Shown: in pieces, positions 37,886-59,430 of the stretch
How positions within the stretch are numbered: the first letter of the stretch is position 1
Layout: every line of letters starts with the position of its first letter
Assembly: GCF_000702205.1 (NCBI RefSeq)
Contig: NZ_JNKW01000009.1
Span: 1 to 64,000 of the forward strand
Reading direction: 5' to 3'
DNA from: Lachnospira multipara LB2003
GTDB taxonomy: Bacteria; Bacillota; Clostridia; Lachnospirales; Lachnospiraceae
Length of the DNA stretch: 64,000 bases
Program-made: the position numbers and the translations under genes
Notes under the pieces: generated by a model
What the model was told of the DNA's origin: nothing
Databases searched by the model: none
The model's input: only the letters and a program-made list of their open reading frames with translations

Positions 37886-38296
37886 TTAGTCAAATTGAAA
37901 TTTAGCTGCGTCTAGCTTTTTTCTATAACAATATGTTTCCTTTTTATTAAATGCAACATTATATGTCATATTTATTCTTACGCTGCACTGCTCTCTTAAT
38001 AAATCTATATCTGTAATTCTTATGTCATATAAACATTTATAATTTGTTCTCTCTTCTAATACGCTTTCAAGTTCTTGCCTTAATTCATAAGCCATTAACT
38101 CTTTATTTTCAAATAGTATCTTTATAAGATTGTCTTTATAATCATTACAAACCACATCAAAAGAATACTCTATGCTACTATCTAGACACCTGATTAATTC
38201 ACCCTGCTTTACATTTTTATCAATAATTACGCTATTAATCATTACGCATAAAAAGAGTACACATACTAAACTAGAACAGCTTATAATTACTCTCAA
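37886..38296 (-). CDS. Small secreted or membrane-anchored protein of the Tad-like locus
   Basis: 136 residues if the TTG at 38296 is used, which has GGAGG 5 bases before it; a GTG at 38317 gives 7 more residues but overlaps that site. One N-terminal hydrophobic helix (SCSSLVCVLFLCVMINSVI) is followed by a 100-residue charged domain with no known motif. The layout is like a pseudopilin or TadE/F-like minor subunit. Last gene of the minus-strand series led by the CpaF-like ATPase. Confidence 0.6.
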   Translation of the reverse strand: MRVIISCSSLVCVLFLCVMINSVIIDKNVKQGELIRCLDSSIEYSFDVVCNDYKDNLIKILFENKELMAYELRQELESVLEERTNYKCLYDIRITDIDLLREQCSVRINMTYNVAFNKKETYCYRKKLDAAKFQFD

Positions 38297-38345
38297 ATAA
38301 ACCTCCAAAAAAAGCACTTAGCATATAATTCTTAATTTATATACT

Positions 38346-38687
38346 CTATTTTTTATAGGCTCTATATCTAACTAATCCCTCTAAGCTTGATATTTTATTA
38401 ATCTTAAAGCTGCCAGCTATAATCCTATAATTAATAGTATATTCATAATATAGGTAATCCTCTGTAGAATCATAATACTCAAAACTTATACTAGCATTGT
38501 TTTTACTAGCTAATTCCTCTGCCATTTTAAAGCCTTCTTCTCCATTAATTTCTATTAGGCTTTCTGTATATCTTGCAAGGGAATTAATCTTTGAAACCCT
38601 TTGATTAATCATAATAAGATCAATTGAGAATATCACTATCAAAGTTATTACCAATAAATAAAAATAACTCTCTAATACACTTTTCAT
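38346..38687 (-). CDS. Pseudopilin-like protein of the Tad-like locus
   Basis: 113 residues. An N-terminal hydrophobic helix (about 7-25) begins almost at once, followed by a soluble domain with an aromatic beta-like stretch (DYLYYEYTINYRIIAGSF). No classical prepilin cleavage site (G followed by xxxxE) is evident, so processing is uncertain. The start at 38687 has AAGGAT before it. The position in the cluster argues for a minor pilin or TadE/F-like role. Confidence 0.6.
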   Translation of the reverse strand: MKSVLESYFYLLVITLIVIFSIDLIMINQRVSKINSLARYTESLIEINGEEGFKMAEELASKNNASISFEYYDSTEDYLYYEYTINYRIIAGSFKINKISSLEGLVRYRAYKK

Positions 38688-38704
38688 AAAAATCCTTAAC
38701 TCAT

Positions 38705-38830
38705 TTAGGGGAGTATGGTTAAAACACAAGCCCCTAACTTTAATATAGTGTAATTTAGTAGCACAAAAGCTGGAGCTAAACCAAGTAATGTAACCACTAC
38801 CTCACCATAATTTTTTATAATCTCATCCAT
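38705..38830 (-). CDS. 41-residue hydrophobic micro-pilin-like protein
   Basis: Begins MDEIIKNYGEVVVTLLG and has a single long hydrophobic helix. The start codon follows the previous stop by one base (TAA T ATG), so translation is coupled. Its N-terminal pattern M-x-E-I-I-x-x-Y-G-x-V matches that of the 58-residue protein at 41493, so the two are likely paralogues. Too short for normal gene callers. Possible major subunit of a Flp-like filament, or a small membrane regulator. Confidence 0.6.
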   Translation of the reverse strand: MDEIIKNYGEVVVTLLGLAPAFVLLNYTILKLGACVLTILP

Positions 38831-38831
38831 A

Positions 38832-38930
38832 TTACATACCTATTAAAACCTTAACAAATAGCCCCACAACAAAACTTCCCATTATAATTGCGACCAGGCA
38901 CGAACCAAATTCTTCTAAAATATTTTCCAT
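38832..38930 (-). CDS. 32-residue single-helix membrane peptide
   Basis: Starts MENILEEFGSCLVAIIMG, with a hydrophobic helix to the end and a GxxxG-like glycine spacing. An AAAGGAC site precedes the ATG. It lies directly between the T2SSF-like gene and the 41-residue protein with coupled stop/start. The acidic N-terminus followed by a helix resembles the other small proteins of the locus. Confidence 0.5.
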   Translation of the reverse strand: MENILEEFGSCLVAIIMGSFVVGLFVKVLIGM

Positions 38931-38973
38931 ACATGTCCTTTCTTTACTACTGCATTTACAAAGCTACCATCAA

Positions 38974-40440
38974 CTACAAGCACATTGTAATTACTAAAAT
39001 TAAGTCTATAGAAATCTTTATTGCTGCTAAAAAGGTTGGGAAATATTCTAAAAACCTTAAGCTGCTTGTAATATTCTTATATTTATCGCCATCAAATTTA
39101 AGGGCTAATTCATTATTTCTTTCAACTAACATATTAATTGTTTCATCCGCGCTTTCGCTATCCATATCATTAATGGAATAAAGAGTTCTAACAGCTGTTA
39201 ATACATCAAGGCAATCAAACTCACTTAAAAACTCATAATAGGGTTCAACAGCCATAGGCTCCATGTCTAATTTATTCAAAAACACATTCAAATTTTCCTT
39301 TAAAATCACAGGACATTCCTTATATGACTGTTCTAATGCCACATATAAAGGTGCTCTTGAAAGTCCTAAACTTAAGTCTCTTAGCCAACAAGTAAAGCCA
39401 TCTCTTAAGTCATCAAGCGCAATTTTTTTTGCCCTTTGTTTAAGCCTTATTGGATGAATTAAGACAAGTAACAAGGCTATAGTAAAATAAATGGCATATA
39501 TCTTAAACTTAAATAAAAACAGAATTATGCTAGCTAGTAAAAGTACGAAAAGCAGTGGTAAGCTTTTTAGATAGAGCTTTTTTAAATCAATCTTAAAAGC
39601 ATTTTTATAATTAACTAAGATTTGTTTATCTGTTCTTTGATTGCTTAAAAAATCTCCCTTATAATTTCCAATAGTCCAGGTTGTAAAAATTAGACATCCT
39701 ATTAAAAAAGCTGTGGTTGATATATTATATTCTAAGCTCTTTGTTATATTTATAATCTGTCCAAATTTTCCAAGCATAATACATAAAGTAGACGTGACTA
39801 AAGCAAGTCCTATACTAATTACAACTCCTATAATTGTATCTGTTCTTATCTTTTTTAATTCACTAATAAATTTGTAAACTCCACTAACCCAAGCATCAAA
39901 ATCCATATTTAACACCTGTAGGGATTTTTTATACCTGCCACCCTTAGTTTCAACCAAGGATAAATATCTATGCAAAGCTCTCATTCTGTCACATCCATAT
40001 TTAGCCTCGATTATTTCAAAAGCATCCTTATATACATCTTCACTGACTCCAAAAGAAAGCTCGTTTATGGCCTTTTTTATGCATTCCTTTAACTCTCCCT
40101 CAGCTATTTTATAAGTGTCCTTTAATGCTATATCTATTTTTTGAGATCTAGAAAAAGAATAAAGCATTTGGTGAAGATATATATCCACATCTCTAAATTT
40201 TTTCTCATTATACTTAGCACTATAAATCCTTTTGATTATATATGGCACCATGAAAAATTCACTTAAAACAATAATGCCTATGCATATTAGATTTAATTGA
40301 AAAAGCAAACCTGCAACTATTCCAAGTACAAAAAATCCTAAAAGAAATCTAATATATACCTTTAGTTTAAAAGAATCCTTTAGCTCTAGATTATCATTTA
40401 TAAGGCTCTTAAATGAGAAATATCTTATTATTTTTTTCAT
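38974..40440 (-). CDS. T2SSF/TadB-TadC-like inner membrane platform protein
   Basis: 488 residues with a membrane hairpin near 30-70, a cytoplasmic helical region (about 75-200), two membrane helices near 205-250, another hairpin near 280-325, a second cytoplasmic helical region (about 335-460, RDGFTCWLRDLSLGLSRAPLYVAL) and a last helix. The two helical regions look like two GspF/TadB-type halves in one chain, as if TadB and TadC were fused. The start codon is joined to the ATPase stop (TAAATG). It would form the membrane platform for pilus or secretion assembly. Confidence 0.65.
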   Translation of the reverse strand: MKKIIRYFSFKSLINDNLELKDSFKLKVYIRFLLGFFVLGIVAGLLFQLNLICIGIIVLSEFFMVPYIIKRIYSAKYNEKKFRDVDIYLHQMLYSFSRSQKIDIALKDTYKIAEGELKECIKKAINELSFGVSEDVYKDAFEIIEAKYGCDRMRALHRYLSLVETKGGRYKKSLQVLNMDFDAWVSGVYKFISELKKIRTDTIIGVVISIGLALVTSTLCIMLGKFGQIINITKSLEYNISTTAFLIGCLIFTTWTIGNYKGDFLSNQRTDKQILVNYKNAFKIDLKKLYLKSLPLLFVLLLASIILFLFKFKIYAIYFTIALLLVLIHPIRLKQRAKKIALDDLRDGFTCWLRDLSLGLSRAPLYVALEQSYKECPVILKENLNVFLNKLDMEPMAVEPYYEFLSEFDCLDVLTAVRTLYSINDMDSESADETINMLVERNNELALKFDGDKYKNITSSLRFLEYFPTFLAAIKISIDLILVITMCL

Positions 40441-41481
40441 TTAATCCTCTCTTTTGTATTTCTTAAATGGATCAGTAATTCCATATCTTAAGAACTTAAA
40501 TTTAACTTTTTCTGGTAGATTTTTATTAATAATTTCACCATTATCATAGATAACTACACATTCATTATTCTTGTCTCTATTTAAAAAACCTACCTGTGTG
40601 ACCTTTCTTTTTTCATACTTATCACATTCTACTAAGACTACTAAATCTATATACTTATAAATATTATTTATGAATCTATCAGACACACCGGAATTACGAA
40701 GCATATTAAACATTCTATCTGGCATATCGCGAATATCATCAAGATGCATGGTTGTCATACAATTAGCTCCTGTAGATAAACTATTTAACAGATCTAATAC
40801 CTCATCGCCTCTTGATTCTGAAAGTAATATCCAATCTATATTATGCCTTAGACCAGCCCTTATAATATCTGCATATGAAACCTTGTTATCCACGTAAAAT
40901 TCAACACATTTCTTATTTGGATTTAGTTTTCTATAATGGATTTCCTGATTATCTTCATATACTCCTACCTTTTCGTAGGCTGGAATAAAAGTGGATAGAT
41001 ACTTTAAAAGTTCTGTTTTTCCTGCATGAGGCTGTCCACCTATTACAGTACTTAAATGCGCTATAACACTATTTTCAAGTAGATTAAGTAGCTCCTCACT
41101 TATATAATTACTTTCTATTAGACTCTCATGTCCAAACCTTAATTTTTCTGGGATTTTTCTAATGGCGACACTTTTTTTAGAACTTCTAGACTCGTGCCAA
41201 ATTGAAATACGCAAAGTTTTTGTATTAGCTTCTAGAATAGGATGAATTCTATTAAATGGGACTTCCATAATATTAGCCAACTTGATACTTAAATTATCAA
41301 CATATCGATCTGATAGTTTCTTTGAAGAAATTTTACATCCCTCACCAAGTTTTGTAATCCATAAATTATAGCCGTCCCATTCAATATCAGTTATATTTTC
41401 ATCATTAATTTCATCGATTAACTCACTAAATAACTCGTTCTTCCTATTTGCTAGAACTTCTTTTAGTTCTTCATTAATCAT
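40441..41481 (-). CDS. CpaF/TadA-like secretion ATPase (T2SSE family)
   Basis: 346-residue hexameric-ATPase-type protein. The N-terminal domain (about 1-125) resembles that of CpaF. The nucleotide site is VIGGQPHAGKTELL near 143-156 (Walker A with Q-P-H-A in place of the usual T-G-S-G), an Asp-box region (VGVYEDNQEI), Walker B DWILLSESRGDEV and His-box-like CMTTMHLDDI. The motifs are derived but complete. It would power Flp/Tad-type pilus assembly or secretion. Preceded by the 58-residue protein and followed by the T2SSF-like protein. Confidence 0.82.
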   Translation of the reverse strand: MINEELKEVLANRKNELFSELIDEINDENITDIEWDGYNLWITKLGEGCKISSKKLSDRYVDNLSIKLANIMEVPFNRIHPILEANTKTLRISIWHESRSSKKSVAIRKIPEKLRFGHESLIESNYISEELLNLLENSVIAHLSTVIGGQPHAGKTELLKYLSTFIPAYEKVGVYEDNQEIHYRKLNPNKKCVEFYVDNKVSYADIIRAGLRHNIDWILLSESRGDEVLDLLNSLSTGANCMTTMHLDDIRDMPDRMFNMLRNSGVSDRFINNIYKYIDLVVLVECDKYEKRKVTQVGFLNRDKNNECVVIYDNGEIINKNLPEKVKFKFLRYGITDPFKKYKRED

Positions 41482-41492
41482 ATAAAACCTCT

Positions 41493-41669
41493 TTATTTTG
41501 TCTCAACTTCCACAGCATTTAGTATTTGTTGTTCGTAGGAAATATTATCTACTGCTGTCTTAGTCTTAGTACTTACAATAGACACAATTGCTGCTGTTAA
41601 AATAGTTGCAGCCAAAACTCCTGCCAAGGCAATAATAACCTTACCGTAATGTTCAATTATTTCATGCAT
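41493..41669 (-). CDS. 58-residue micro-pilin-like membrane protein
   Basis: Starts MHEIIEHYGKVIIALAGVLA; one hydrophobic helix (about 10-31) is followed by a polar tail ending VEVETK. GGAGA precedes the ATG at good spacing. It heads the cluster 12 bases before the CpaF-like ATPase. Its N-terminus matches that of the 41-residue protein at 38705. It is the best candidate for the main filament subunit, although no prepilin-peptidase motif is evident. Confidence 0.65.
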   Translation of the reverse strand: MHEIIEHYGKVIIALAGVLAATILTAAIVSIVSTKTKTAVDNISYEQQILNAVEVETK

Positions 41670-41827: not shown

Positions 41828-41860
41828 AAATAAGGGGCACCTAAGTGCCCCTCATAATTT
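41828..41860 (-). terminator. Terminator after the pectate lyase gene
   Basis: Hairpin GGGGCACctaaGTGCCCC followed on the minus strand by a T-run, 40 bases after the lyase stop. Confidence 0.85.
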
Positions 41861-46715: not shown

Positions 46716-47753
46716 TTACACATATCTTCTTGTCATTTTAATAATTCTACTTATTAATTCATCATAATGTATTCCATCTGCTGCCGCTATATTAGGGAAA
46801 ACACTGGTATCTAACATATTAGGAAGACTATTTACTTCTAGAAGATAAATATCTCCTTCTTCACTCATTATTAAATCTGCCTTAGCATAATGTTCAATTC
46901 CAAGAATATCACAAGCTTTCTCCACAATTCTCTTCATTTTTCTTGTGGTATCCTCATCTAGTTTTGCAGGACACACCTTTTCATTTTCCAAATCTGGATC
47001 CCATTTGTTCTTATGGGAATTAAAGCCTGTGTTGCCAGTATATTTTATTTCCATAATGGAAAGAGCCTTACCTTCAAGGAAACCAACAGCAAATTCACGG
47101 CCCTTAATATACTCTTCAACAATAATATTATCATCAAGAGCAAAGGCATCCCCAATAGCTCTTTGGAATTCCTCATCGTTATTTACAATAGAAACTCCAA
47201 TGCTTGAGCCTGACATACTTGGCTTAACCACACAAGGAAATGGTACATATTCAGCCCTATGACCCTTCTTTAAGGTAAAGCCCTTAGGCATAACCACTCC
47301 ACCTGGAACAAGAACTTTCTTACTTAAACTCTTATCAAGAGATAAAAGACAACTCATCTGACCAGAGCCTGTATAGTTAATATCATATAAATCAAAGACA
47401 CTTTGTAGATGGCCATCTTCACCAACCTTGCCACTTACACATATAAAGCATAAATCAGCCTGCATGCATAACTCAATAACATTTTTGCCAAATATTCCCT
47501 GTCTGTATTTTTTTCTCTTTTCTACTTCATCTTTAACAGTTGCAGTCTTATTTTTAAGTATTATTACTTCGTCAAGCAAGCTGTTATTCTCTGTAAAAAA
47601 ATTATCTACTCTTGAATCATCAATTCCATAAAGCAAGTCAAGAATATTAGCATTATGCCCCTGTCTTCTTAAAGATTGACAGATATTTTGTGCATTTAAC
47701 AAAGAAATGTCTCGTTCACTACTAACTCCACCAGATAAAACAACAATATTCAT
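46716..47753 (-). CDS. Divergent D-alanine-D-alanine ligase paralogue
   Basis: 345 residues, clearly of the Ddl ATP-grasp family (VLSGGVSSERDISL, CVVKPSMSGSSIGVSIV, EEYIKGREFAVG). Compared with the canonical Ddl at 58405, several active-site positions differ: Ser107 replaces the His of the LHG motif (GLHGANGEDG versus CVSGKVGEDG), YDYENKY is replaced by FNSHKNKW, GRVDML by AKADLIM, and TLPGMTPTS by SLPNMLDTS. The general ATP-grasp residues are kept. It may ligate another pair of amino acids, or a D-Ala analogue, or be a weak Ddl. It is not next to van genes. AGGTGG precedes the ATG. Confidence 0.85.
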   Translation of the reverse strand: MNIVVLSGGVSSERDISLLNAQNICQSLRRQGHNANILDLLYGIDDSRVDNFFTENNSLLDEVIILKNKTATVKDEVEKRKKYRQGIFGKNVIELCMQADLCFICVSGKVGEDGHLQSVFDLYDINYTGSGQMSCLLSLDKSLSKKVLVPGGVVMPKGFTLKKGHRAEYVPFPCVVKPSMSGSSIGVSIVNNDEEFQRAIGDAFALDDNIIVEEYIKGREFAVGFLEGKALSIMEIKYTGNTGFNSHKNKWDPDLENEKVCPAKLDEDTTRKMKRIVEKACDILGIEHYAKADLIMSEEGDIYLLEVNSLPNMLDTSVFPNIAAADGIHYDELISRIIKMTRRYV

Positions 47754-51699: not shown

Positions 51700-53019
51700 T
51701 TAATGTAATTCAGCTTCGGCTGTATCTATGCCTTGCTTTGTCTTAGCTTCAACCTTTAAATCAAATACTGAACTATTAGTTGTATTGTCTAACACATTTC
51801 CCACATTATCTTCTAAGTGATATGTAACACCATAGTCACCATTAAATAAGTTATCTGCAAAATTTTCAAGATTAACCGTCATAACATCAAAGCTACTCCA
51901 ATCAATGTGAGTATATCTATTATATTCATCTAATTCTTGATTATCTGCTTTTCCTATTGTAGCAACTTGTGAATTGTCATAATTTGTTACTACAATGCTA
52001 GACTTGTCTAAGTTAAGACCTGAGATATTGTCATGTCCTATAAGGCTTACGATATATTCTGTAAAATTAGACTTATCAAGGCCCACAATATTTTCTAGCT
52101 TATCTATACCTTCAAGTGTTGGTATATCATTATCACCAATAAGAGATGTATAACCATCTGTATCGTGATAAGTAGTTGTTTCGTTATAACTTATATGTGA
52201 GTCATGCCAAGCATCCCTCATAATAACCCAAGGATTAATAAGCATCGAGTTATCGCCTGTTAAAGTAACATTATTATAGCCTGTTCCACATATGCTCTTG
52301 CCATCTTTTCCTTTATTAGATGTGAAACTAGCTGAAGTTACTGTCTGAACATTTCCTGTATCTGTACTTGATACATAATCATATCCAAAGCTATCTATGT
52401 AATACCAACTAGATGTAGTTGCCTTGTCGCCATTTGCAAATAAAGCCTGGCGTTTATATTGCCAATTAGTTGATTGATTAGTATTTAAATAGTACCCAAT
52501 TTGAGTACCACTAGCACTTACACTTCCAAGACTTGTAACAATCGGTGTATCTGAATAATAAAAATATCCAGCAGGACTATCAATTGCCTGATTCTTCCAT
52601 TGTGGAGCGAAAGGTGTATCTGAATTACTTGTATTAGCATTTGGTTTCTCTATATCATTACCATCAGCGTCAGTAAAATGTTTCCATATTGCTACTAAAG
52701 TAACTGTTCCGTCCGAACTACGAAGGTTTTTAATTTTTTCATTAGCATTTATATATGACTTTGTACCAATACCGACACTTGGATCTGTATTAGTATTATT
52801 GGTGTATCCACCATAATTTGAGCCATCATAGACTTGCCAACTTCTAAACTCATAATCTTCTCTAGTTACGCTATTTGGTGCAGCAACCGTTTCGTCAAAA
52901 CGAACTTTTCTATCTGGGATTTGTTCCTCATTTGCAAGGTTCATATCGTAATGAACTGTATATGAGATAGGTTTCCATATAGCATAAAATGTAATTGTTG
53001 TACCATTACTTACATTCAC
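51700..53019 (-). pseudogene. C-terminal part of a frame-broken repeat surface protein
   Basis: 439-codon open frame that continues the protein at 53085-54431 in a different frame. It starts inside an InlB-type (Listeria-Bacteroides repeat) module (TFYAIWKPISYTVHYDMN), with no independent signal peptide or good ribosome site, then about 330 residues of an unrecognised extracellular region. The start given is only an open-frame GTG. A frame shift before the end could explain a further 27-codon open run (toward VEIN) that stops just before the terminator. Together with the upstream frame this was probably one gene of about 900 codons. Confidence 0.65.
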
Positions 53020-53335
53020 TCCTGATGACTTTGGTGTAACAGTTGTGCCTACCCTATTTAATCCTCCAAGGCTTGAACTAAAACTTAGAGAACTTCTTCT
53101 CTAGTTACGCTATCTGGTGCAGTAACCGTTTCGTCAAAACGAACTCTCTTATCTGGAATTTGTTCCTCATTTGCAAGGTTCATATCGTAATGAACTGTAT
53201 ATGAGATAGGTTTCCAGATTGCGTAAAATGTAATCGTTGTACCATTACTTACATTCACTCCTGATGATTTTGGTGTAACAGTTGTACCTACCCTATTTAA
53301 TCCTCCAAGGCTTGAACTAAAACTTAGAGAACTAT
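52858..53335 (-). repeat. 239-bp tandem duplication in the surface-protein gene
   Basis: Two adjacent copies, 52858-53096 and 53097-53335, about 95% identical by my count (roughly 12 differences). The unit length is 239, not a multiple of three, so reading through the junction changes frame and meets a TAA. Each copy encodes an InlB-like module. The divergence shows that the copies are not brand new, although the frame break may be. Confidence 0.85.
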
Positions 53336-54431
53336 AAGAAGGATTTGTTGACCAGCCCACAAATTCATAGCCTGTTCTTGTTAGTGAACTAGCACTAGGC
53401 ATTGTTATACTATTACCAGCCTTAACATTTTTAATAGTTGTTACACTACCTGTTGGATTTGTTGTAATGGTATCACCATAGATATTCTTTGTCGTTACAC
53501 TTGTTGGGTTTGGGTTAAATATAACATCATAGGTGAATTTATAATATATATTTACGGTTGTATCTGCATTTAAAGTCTGTACACCAGTAGAAGTAGTACC
53601 AATTTTGGTTTCTGTACCATTTTCCACCTTAGTAATCTTATCTACATAGACATTACTTCTATTGCTTCTTGTAGCATTAATAGAATAAGTATAGCCTTTT
53701 GTAACGTTCATATATACATCGCTTTGCCATGCATTTGAATCAGATATTTTAAAATTACCATATGAACCATCTGTAAATTCCTGCCATGAAGAGCCAGTCC
53801 AATATAGTGGATTTACATTCAAAACCTTTTGTTGATCTGGATCATCTTCCCAAACGATTGTGATGGTATAATCAGAATTATCTTCTCTAGTTTTAGGAGT
53901 GCGACCTGCATTTTTATCAGCAAGCCAGTCTCCTTCATAAATACCACAGTCAACAAGTATTGAATACTTATCTGGCTGATATGTGGACATATATCCTGAA
54001 TCATCTCTAACACCTGCAATCCTTTTACCTTCTGGTGGGTTAGTTACTTGAATATAAAGATATGGAGTATGACTAGTAAAATTTCCACTTACAGATGTAC
54101 TGGGAATATCATAACCTTCAGGTCCGAAAGAAAAATCTTCTGTCAACTTACCCCAAGTATCCCTACCGTTTTCCTCTAATGACTTCCAAGCTTTTTCTGC
54201 AGATGTACCACTACGCATATTTGCTTCATTATCGTCTGAATCATACCAGGTAATTGTATATGAACCACTTCCGCCCTCTTGATTAATACCAATATAAAAT
54301 GTTGCATTACTTGTATCTAGAGCGTAAACCACCTTAGATGAAATTGTTATGAATAATAAGATAATTATAAATGTAACTAGAACTAATGACTTCCGACCTT
54401 TGTCCTTTTGTGATTGCCATGCTTTTATCAT
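53085..54431 (-). pseudogene. N-terminal part of a secreted InlB-repeat surface protein
   Basis: 448 residues as read. Signal peptide/membrane helix (about 16-38), then an extracellular beta-rich region, a segment with YTITIVWEDDPDQQKVL, and an InlB-like repeat (GYEFVGWSTNPSYSS and FYAIWKPISY). The frame ends TREEVL-stop at the 239-bp duplication junction. GGAGG precedes the ATG. As an isolated product it would lack the C-terminal half; an adhesin or repeat-rich surface protein is the likely original role. Confidence 0.75.
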
Positions 54432-58404: not shown

Positions 58405-59430
58405 TTATCTATTAATTGATAAATCAATTACTTTTTGTGTTAATTCATCAAAACTAATTCCTGCCTCACTTGCTTCATGAGGAAGTAAACTTGTTGGTGT
58501 CATGCCAGGAAGTGTATTAATTTCAAGGCAGTAAATATTATTATTCTCATCAAGTAACATATCTACTCTACCATAAATTGTTACACCTGCAACCTTTAAG
58601 CATTCCACTGCCCAGTGCTGCATCTGCTTTGTTATATCATCTGGAATATTAGCTGGGCAAACATGCTTTGTTGCACCATCAGCATACTTATTCTCATAAT
58701 CATACCAACCCTTTAAAGGTACAATTTCAATTACAGGAAGTGGCTTTCCATCTAATACACCAGCAGAGAATTCTCTACCCTTTACATATTCCTCTATTAA
58801 AACTGTATCATCTGATTCAAAAGCGTAATCAAGAGCCTTTGTAAATTCATCTTTAGAATTAACAATAGAAACACCTACTGAAGAACCACCATTAGCTGGC
58901 TTAACAACGCATGGGAACTGGATATCTCTTGCCTCTTCACCCTTATGAAGAACAATACCCTTAGGCATTGGAATTCCATTAGGAACTAATACTTTCTTAG
59001 TTAAATCCTTATCCATTGAAATTGCGCTACTAAGTGAATCTGTACCTGTATATTTAATATCTAATAATTCAAATGTTCCCTGAATCTTACCATCTTCACC
59101 GTTAGCACCATGAAGTCCCATAAATACTACATCAGCTTCCTTACAAAGCTTTAATACATTAGGACCAAAAAAGCCCTGTCTTGTTGTCTTTCTATTCTTA
59201 ATTTCTGTCTCTATTTCATGGCTTTTAGCCTTTAATTCCTTCTCAAGCTCATCTAAATCATTTTTTTCTGTAAAAAATGAAGCAGCCTTATTATCATCTA
59301 TACCATAAAAAACGTCTAAAACATTAGCGTCATGTCCATTTCTTCTTAAGCTTTCACATACGTAATGACTTGTAACCAAAGAAATATCTCTTTCTGTACT
59401 TGTACCACCTGCTAATACTACAATCTTCAT
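58405..59430 (-). CDS. ddl: D-alanine-D-alanine ligase
   Basis: 341-residue ATP-grasp enzyme making D-Ala-D-Ala for peptidoglycan. Canonical residues are present: AGGTSTERDISL (Glu13), GLHGANGEDG (His107), VVKPANGGSSVG, the YDYENKY tyrosine loop, YGRVDML and LEINTLPGMTPTSLLP. Residues about 45-90 form an extra insert that the divergent paralogue at 46716 also has. AGGAGG precedes the ATG. Directly before murF. Confidence 0.95.
   Translation of the reverse strand: MKIVVLAGGTSTERDISLVTSHYVCESLRRNGHDANVLDVFYGIDDNKAASFFTEKNDLDELEKELKAKSHEIETEIKNRKTTRQGFFGPNVLKLCKEADVVFMGLHGANGEDGKIQGTFELLDIKYTGTDSLSSAISMDKDLTKKVLVPNGIPMPKGIVLHKGEEARDIQFPCVVKPANGGSSVGVSIVNSKDEFTKALDYAFESDDTVLIEEYVKGREFSAGVLDGKPLPVIEIVPLKGWYDYENKYADGATKHVCPANIPDDITKQMQHWAVECLKVAGVTIYGRVDMLLDENNNIYCLEINTLPGMTPTSLLPHEASEAGISFDELTQKVIDLSINR

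Follow-up and report, generated by a model that had tools for sequence, protein, structure and literature searches.

The product of a seven-gene locus of Lachnospira multipara LB2003 is probably a minimal machine for type IV filaments made of leaderless pilins. This machine apparently branches deeply and stands apart from the type II secretion system (T2SS), Tad, and type IVa pili. The locus lies in the 64,000-nucleotide stretch of DNA analyzed here (the window, which belongs to contig C8 of a 2.58 Mb genome), where seven open reading frames (ORFs) run in a row on the minus strand from position 41669 to 37886. All seven are present in the order given by an original prediction made from the letters of the window, with two starts corrected. 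They encode one ATPase, one platform protein, three single-helix proteins of 58, 32, and 41 residues, and two larger proteins of 113 and 136 residues. Our assignment draws on gene content, conservation, and the lack of a recognizable leader, all read from sequence, and on the modeled fold of the platform; from these, we infer filament assembly, the roles of the subunits, retention of the first methionine, and adhesion. From upstream to downstream, the predicted products are:

41493..41669, minus strand: candidate leaderless micro-pilin of 58 residues, probable major subunit, beginning MHEIIEHYGKVIIALAG..., with an AGGAG ribosome site 8 nucleotides (nt) upstream
40441..41481, minus strand: assembly ATPase of the TadA/CpaF-VirB11 type, 346 residues, with a T2SSE match
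38974..40440, minus strand: inner-membrane platform with two GspF-like halves, resembling a fused TadB-TadC, 488 residues
38832..38930, minus strand: candidate leaderless micro-pilin of 32 residues, beginning MENILEEFG..., with an AGGA site 6 nt upstream and aligned relatives
38705..38830, minus strand: candidate leaderless micro-pilin of 41 residues, beginning MDEIIKNYG..., with Lys at position 6 and 3 open codons upstream
38346..38687, minus strand: candidate leaderless, pseudopilin-like minor subunit of 113 residues, beginning MKSVLESYF..., with an AGGA site 6 nt upstream
37886..38296, minus strand: candidate leaderless minor subunit of 136 residues, beginning MRVIISCSS..., without the conserved Glu, probable tip subunit, with GGAGG 6 nt upstream of its TTG start

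The last two starts are the corrected ones. For an ORF listed at 127 residues (TTG at 38729), the ATG at 38687 with its AGGA ribosome site is the more likely start, giving 113 residues. For an ORF listed at 143 residues (GTG at 38317), the TTG at 38296 preceded by GGAGG is likewise more likely and gives 136 residues.

N-termini of the small proteins

Normal prepilins carry a leader that is removed by a peptidase. We surveyed the starts of the small proteins in 43 loci, 21 from Lachnospira, 20 from other genera of the family, and 2 from outside the family, keeping ORFs near the machine genes that follow a ribosome site and have a hydrophobic helix at the N-terminus (n = 203). Position 6 is Glu or Asp in 105 of the 203 ORFs (98 Glu), compared with 2 ORFs at position 4 and 2 at position 5. 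Across the same 203, Tyr occupies position 8 in 94 and Gly position 9 in 108. A common start of the small proteins is M-x4-E-x-Y-G, set directly at the hydrophobic helix, with Met1 about at the residue where a prepilin is cleaved. Among similarly chosen control ORFs, taken from elsewhere in the window and from five further stretches of the same genome, Glu or Asp stands at position 6 in 2 of 44, one of which is a mobile-element prepilin with a leader. When distinct sequences are sorted into classes without use of residue 6, the acidic residue is found in 28/38 small ORFs (up to 70 residues) upstream of the platform gene, 50/72 small ORFs downstream of it, and 20/32 members of the 113-residue family, compared with 0/30 in the last-gene family and 3/26 other larger ORFs.

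No prepilin leader, including the Flp type and the class I type (G/F-x3-E, with the slash marking cleavage here and below), was seen in the five small proteins of the window or in their relatives. Upstream of the 105 ORFs with Glu or Asp at position 6, the reading frame stays open for at most five codons in 33 and at most three in 17, so a Tad-type leader cannot fit there with any start codon; the three open codons before the 41-residue gene of the window leave no room for the usual leader. Alignment rows are flush at Met1 in three micro-families (35/35, a set that had been selected for E, D, K, or R at position 6; 30/33; and 24/29), and the 35-row alignment of the 58-residue family has no gap in its first 28 columns. 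As a rule, residue 2 decides whether the initiator Met is removed. It permits removal in 4/38 upstream and 8/72 downstream small ORFs, and Met1 is therefore probably retained on the small proteins.

Ordinary pilins and peptidases in the same genomes

The original prediction had noted that the locus contains neither a secretin nor a prepilin peptidase. This holds for the seven genes. For the peptidase it does not extend to the genome, which has prepilin peptidase matches over the cut-off at C6:94475 and C4:42483 and another just under it at C4:9773, together with a type IVa pilus locus (C6), a Tad set (C4), and an apparent mobile element with Tad-like genes (C2). The type IVa pilins on C6 keep class I leaders (NKG/FSLVEL and KKG/FSLVEV), and the N-terminal piece of Flp at the C4 Tad locus also keeps its leader (MKQFMKFMKEEDGMG/VIEVV), with all cleavage points read by eye. 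By-eye comparison finds no match to the A24 peptidase family (PF01478) near the platform gene in any of 62 genomes; the two share a contig in five, at a closest distance of ~182 kb, and lie on different contigs in the other 57.

A trans-acting peptidase is thus present, but the small proteins offer it no recognizable leader. The suggestion of a minimal, possibly unprocessed machine in the original prediction survives in that the tiny conserved subunits look unprocessed; the missing peptidase gene, from which it argued, does not carry the point. What carries it is the missing leader, which the original prediction did not describe.

Assembly ATPase and platform

The ATPase matches T2SSE with an E-value of 2.5e-16 and 59.8 bits (cut-off 24.9), in agreement with its earlier description as CpaF-like. 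It also scores 7.4e-23 against TadA (TIGR03819) and 2.4e-22 against VirB11, both below the cut-off, and 1.6e-19 against TrbB, and its profile matches solved T2SS-type, VirB11, and CpaF chains at 7e-25 to 2e-21 (1.4e-21 for CpaF in the PDB). Gly154-Lys155-Thr156 and Glu222 are invariant in 19/19 sequences. In a phylogenetic tree, the 41 ATPases of this system form one group on a long branch (support 94/96), apart from the Tad, type IVa, and mobile-element ATPases of the same genome; the tree has long branches, which leaves the position of the group unsure.

The platform is a single 488-residue protein with two helical halves, the first of which was matched to GspF-type domains. The window protein alone has no Pfam match. 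Its earlier designation as T2SSF-like is upheld by matches to T2SSF in 7 of 20 aligned relatives (best 3.4e-5) and by a structural model that resembles solved domains of EpsF, OutF, and PilC, pointing to a GspF/PilC cytoplasmic-domain fold. Of the platform proteins in named records, the nearest come from Lachnospira multipara ATCC 19207 and L. pectinoschiza M83, at 59% identity.

Individual small proteins

The 58-residue gene precedes the ATPase gene in 19 of 21 Lachnospira loci. When its family profile is compared with 177,635 PDB sequences, the top three matches are Tad or type IV pilins, with E-values of 0.046 to 0.14. The 58-residue and 41–49-residue families are paralogous by profile comparison (97.4%, E 1.4e-11).

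The two larger proteins stand in the place of TadE and TadF and have no match to the TadE-type family. The AlphaFold model of the 113-residue protein (predicted local distance difference test, 95.0) consists of a long helix (res. 2–48), a short helix (res. 51–62), and three strands (res. 65–74, 78–91, and 96–109). The 136-residue family, which was classed without use of the N-terminus, has no Glu or Asp at position 6 in any of 30 members; GspK of the T2SS is likewise without the conserved Glu. This family is homologous to a last-gene family of other genera (99.2%, E 1.8e-19), in which DUF5411 is matched by 6 of 15 members (best E 0.0014, at a limit of 0.1) and an InlB-type repeat is present in 5 of 15. 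The 136-residue protein of the window has no DUF5411 match and is shorter than the DUF5411-type last proteins.

Distribution and conservation

In a single-protein search of a first sample, the platform gene was found in 22/22 Lachnospira genomes and 0/19 others (3 of the family and 16 of the order). A platform profile used at a threshold of E 1e-8 detected it in 50/397 sampled genomes of the family, representing 43/334 genera, and in 4/391 sampled genomes of the class, two of these outside the family. Plasmid records contain no match above 60% identity among the 739 with a match.

The small ORFs recur at matching places in relatives. Their ratios of nonsynonymous to synonymous substitution rates (dN/dS), computed by the Nei-Gojobori method for nine genome pairs per ORF, of which saturated or missing pairs were unusable, are 0 to 0.18 for the 58-residue ORF (5 usable pairs), 0.07 to 0.28 for the 32-residue ORF (6 pairs), 0.17 and 0.22 for the 113-residue ORF (2 pairs), and 0.09 to 0.40 for the 136-residue ORF (5 pairs). 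The 41-residue ORF has two pairs, both saturated, giving no dN/dS. Four of the five small ORFs (58, 32, 113, and 136 residues) are under purifying selection, the kind of conservation that had been proposed as a check on them.

Some loci depart from the general pattern. A genome placed in Lachnospira (G018), counted among the 22, has a divergent system (L071) whose ATPase is just 36% identical and groups with that of another genus (L124); it may reflect transfer, a second lineage, or contamination. Two loci from different families (L130 and L144) have nearly the same ATPase, on short branches, and similar small proteins, a likeness that suggests horizontal transfer. L130 also has its 56-residue subunit gene in two identical copies.

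Comparison with known systems

The gene set is already known as a prediction, while leaderless subunits that start at the mature position are new as far as the literature searched shows. An operon of Roseburia, Ruminococcus, and Eubacterium, postulated through gene-context learning, holds CpaF, PilC/GspF, DUF5411, and InlB-like proteins alongside genes without resemblance, and is described as secretion-related and of unknown function (PMC9523054). With this matching operon, the locus is not unique. The two have in common a CpaF ATPase and a PilC/GspF protein together in gut Clostridia, a likeness drawn from the published description; the window form differs in that its core comprises seven genes, InlB is not next to it, and its last protein is shorter and has no DUF5411 match. 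The section of PMC9523054 on this operon assigns no function to the remaining genes and says nothing of leaders.

The system is like Tad (type IVc) in its TadA-type ATPase, its two-half GspF-like platform, and a single-helix subunit of the size of mature Flp, but lacks leaders and has no TadV, TadZ, separate TadB/TadC, or secretin among the seven genes, and its ATPase lies far from the Tad ATPase of the same genome in the tree. In Caulobacter, the Tad pilin PilA is made with a leader of 14 residues and is 45 residues long when mature; its conserved Glu5 and Tyr6 (mature numbering) take part in hydrogen bonding between neighbors (PMC11067988). By analogy, the leaderless proteins plausibly carry this Glu-Tyr motif as their E-x-Y-G, with E6 or, where present, E7 as the counterpart of Glu5. 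Gram-positive tad-like loci described earlier also combine Tad-like genes with no recognizable prepilin signal (PMC3244431); those loci contain tadV, tadZ, and rcpC, whereas the locus in the window has none of these and does have leaderless helices. The platform fold and the ATPase resemble those of the T2SS pseudopilus and the type IVa pilus, from which the system differs by having no leaders and no PilM/N/O-type assembly proteins or secretin among the seven genes.

The prepilin peptidase is counted as a core and ancestral part of type IV filament systems; one peptidase can serve several systems, and MSH loci lack one of their own (PMC6668835). In the literature covered, with most subscription papers outside coverage, we found no description of leaderless or peptidase-independent pilins, only PMC9523054 and PMC3244431 on such pili in Lachnospira, Lachnospiraceae, Clostridia, or Roseburia, and only PMC9523054 on DUF5411.

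Proposed mechanism and alternatives

In the machine we propose, the ATPase would drive the GspF-like platform to polymerize leaderless pilins into a very thin filament. The 58-residue protein would be the probable major subunit, with the 32- and 41-residue proteins as minor or accessory helices; filament initiation or tip capping would fall to the 113- and 136-residue proteins. Because the first translated residue lies close to the first residue of a mature pilin, subunits would insert N-in/C-out as finished pilins, most of them keeping Met1, and would need no prepilin peptidase. The role is most likely adhesion, the sticky part being either the tip subunit or a lectin or InlB-repeat protein encoded nearby. 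More broadly, we lean slightly toward a peptidase-independent branch of type IV filaments, in which genes encode pilins in their mature form, the micro-pilins are paralogs of ~31 to 67 residues, and prepilin cleavage, otherwise regarded as a core step, has been deleted.

Several points weigh against this proposal, in which the filament itself is a prediction from genes. Acidic residues also occur at position 3 (61/203) and position 7 (65/203), no Glu or Asp is found at position 6 in 10/38 upstream and 22/72 downstream small ORFs, and the 41-residue protein of the window has Lys there. Where five codons are open, there is just enough room for a class I leader of the minimal six residues. Upstream of the five small genes of the window, 15, 11, 3, 38, and 7 codons are open, so that for most of them the no-leader claim leans on ribosome sites and relatives. 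The pilin matches of the 58-residue profile are weak and in a different helix register, and a reversed control has a best match of E 0.12, to an unrelated protein, and no pilin. The 41–49-residue profile matches photosystem II protein J, the 32-residue profile has no matches, and comparison of the 113-residue model with solved structures gives no pilin among the 50 matches listed. PF01478 is found in all 62 genomes examined (60/60 and 2/2 in two sets).

A secretion machine could be assembled from much the same parts, the leaderless helices forming a short, envelope-bound pseudopilus piston that expels the large secreted proteins encoded nearby. The ATPase and platform are of the T2SS kind, the 32-residue proteins barely exceed a membrane helix, large surface-domain proteins lie downstream in several relatives, and PMC9523054 terms its operon secretion-related. 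We consider this unlikely, as the large neighbors appear by eye to have N-terminal signal-like stretches of their own, no such large gene adjoins the locus in the window, and the InlB-type repeat on the last subunit in 5 of 15 relatives fits an exposed adhesive tip. The lectin, InlB-repeat, and thioester-domain neighbors in relatives also favor adhesion in the choice between pilus and secretion machine that the original prediction had left open.

We give little credence to ordinary processed pilins, which would take their leader from a non-standard upstream start and be matured in trans by TadV or PilD. An A24 peptidase is at hand in every genome checked and could be shared, as with the MSH loci (PMC6668835), but the few open codons upstream of many of the 105 ORFs, the flush starts in most rows of three families, and the distance of the nearest same-contig peptidase, with other contigs in most genomes, argue otherwise. 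Several hydrophobic, leaderless peptides of 32–58 residues per operon are reminiscent of multi-peptide leaderless bacteriocins; that these are bacteriocin-like, or are small membrane peptides of another kind whose only tie to the transport ATPase is a common operon, is very improbable given the shared acidic N-terminal E-x-Y-G motif, the association with an ATPase and platform in the loci examined, and a 113-residue partner with a modeled helix-plus-sheet fold, and no immunity or exporter genes were noticed, though no search was aimed at them. A machine for DNA transfer or uptake, in conjugation or competence, would suit the VirB11 and TrbB scores of the ATPase and is equally hard to credit with no relaxase-, coupling-protein-, or ComEA/EC-like gene among the seven, presence throughout the Lachnospira genomes, and no close match in plasmid records.

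If the proteins do assemble into the leaderless filament, the functions of the leader (membrane targeting, storage, and timing) would be separable from assembly itself, and the locus would provide a minimal machine for biochemical work, with 32-residue subunits smaller than the mature Caulobacter Tad pilin. Leaderless subunits would be missed by finders such as PilFind, which is trained on the prepilin signal (PMC3244431). The proposal also offers a role for small genes left unexplained in an operon that many Lachnospiraceae carry, and puts forward a candidate adhesin system in these commensals.

Transcription unit and neighboring genes

One further feature lies upstream of the locus:

41830..41855, minus strand: terminator-like hairpin after the upstream surface-protein gene, with an 11-pair stem including 6 G-C pairs and a T-run

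This hairpin is the sole minus-strand one among those listed between 37000 and 42000, and suggests that the locus is a separate transcription unit; terminator-like hairpins on both strands number 3, not above shuffled sequences (mean 2.2). The seven genes probably form one unit, which may extend into a PAP2-family phosphatase gene at 37831-37208, 54 bp after the operon. A PAP2-family gene is also next in two relatives (L054 and L055) and one gene further on in two others (L052 and L053).

Large downstream proteins scanned in eight relatives contain InlB-type repeats in L052 (L. multipara), L069, L126, L130, L132, and L134, a ricin-type lectin domain in L069, a thioester domain in L126, and ChW repeats in L139; the scan gave no clear domain for L138. 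In the window, no gene for such a large protein adjoins the operon. About 10 kb upstream of it, at 51700-54431 on the minus strand, two ORFs of 448 and 439 residues have InlB-type repeat (Flg_new) scores under the cut-off. A near-identical repeat stretch ends the first and begins the second, and the pair resembles a broken tandem duplication. It is preceded by a 361-residue lipoprotein-like ORF.

Other observations

At 46716-47753 and 58405-59430, within ~13 kb, the window has two genes that we take to be D-Ala-D-Ala-ligase-like. Elsewhere in the genome, the Flp gene of the C4 Tad locus lies in two pieces ~24.7 kb apart, at C4:13203-13298 (L146) and at about C4 37960-38061 (L147 1471-1572, minus strand), with relaxase-, MobC-, and partition-like ORFs, named by eye, between them. 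A mobile element seems to sit inside this pilin gene, and the ordinary Tad pilus of this strain may be without its subunit. The apparent mobile element at C2:347000-369900 (L049 and L050) carries a VirD4-like gene, two more CpaF-type ATPases, and Tad-like platform genes, partly named by eye, as well as prepilin-like proteins with K-rich leaders.

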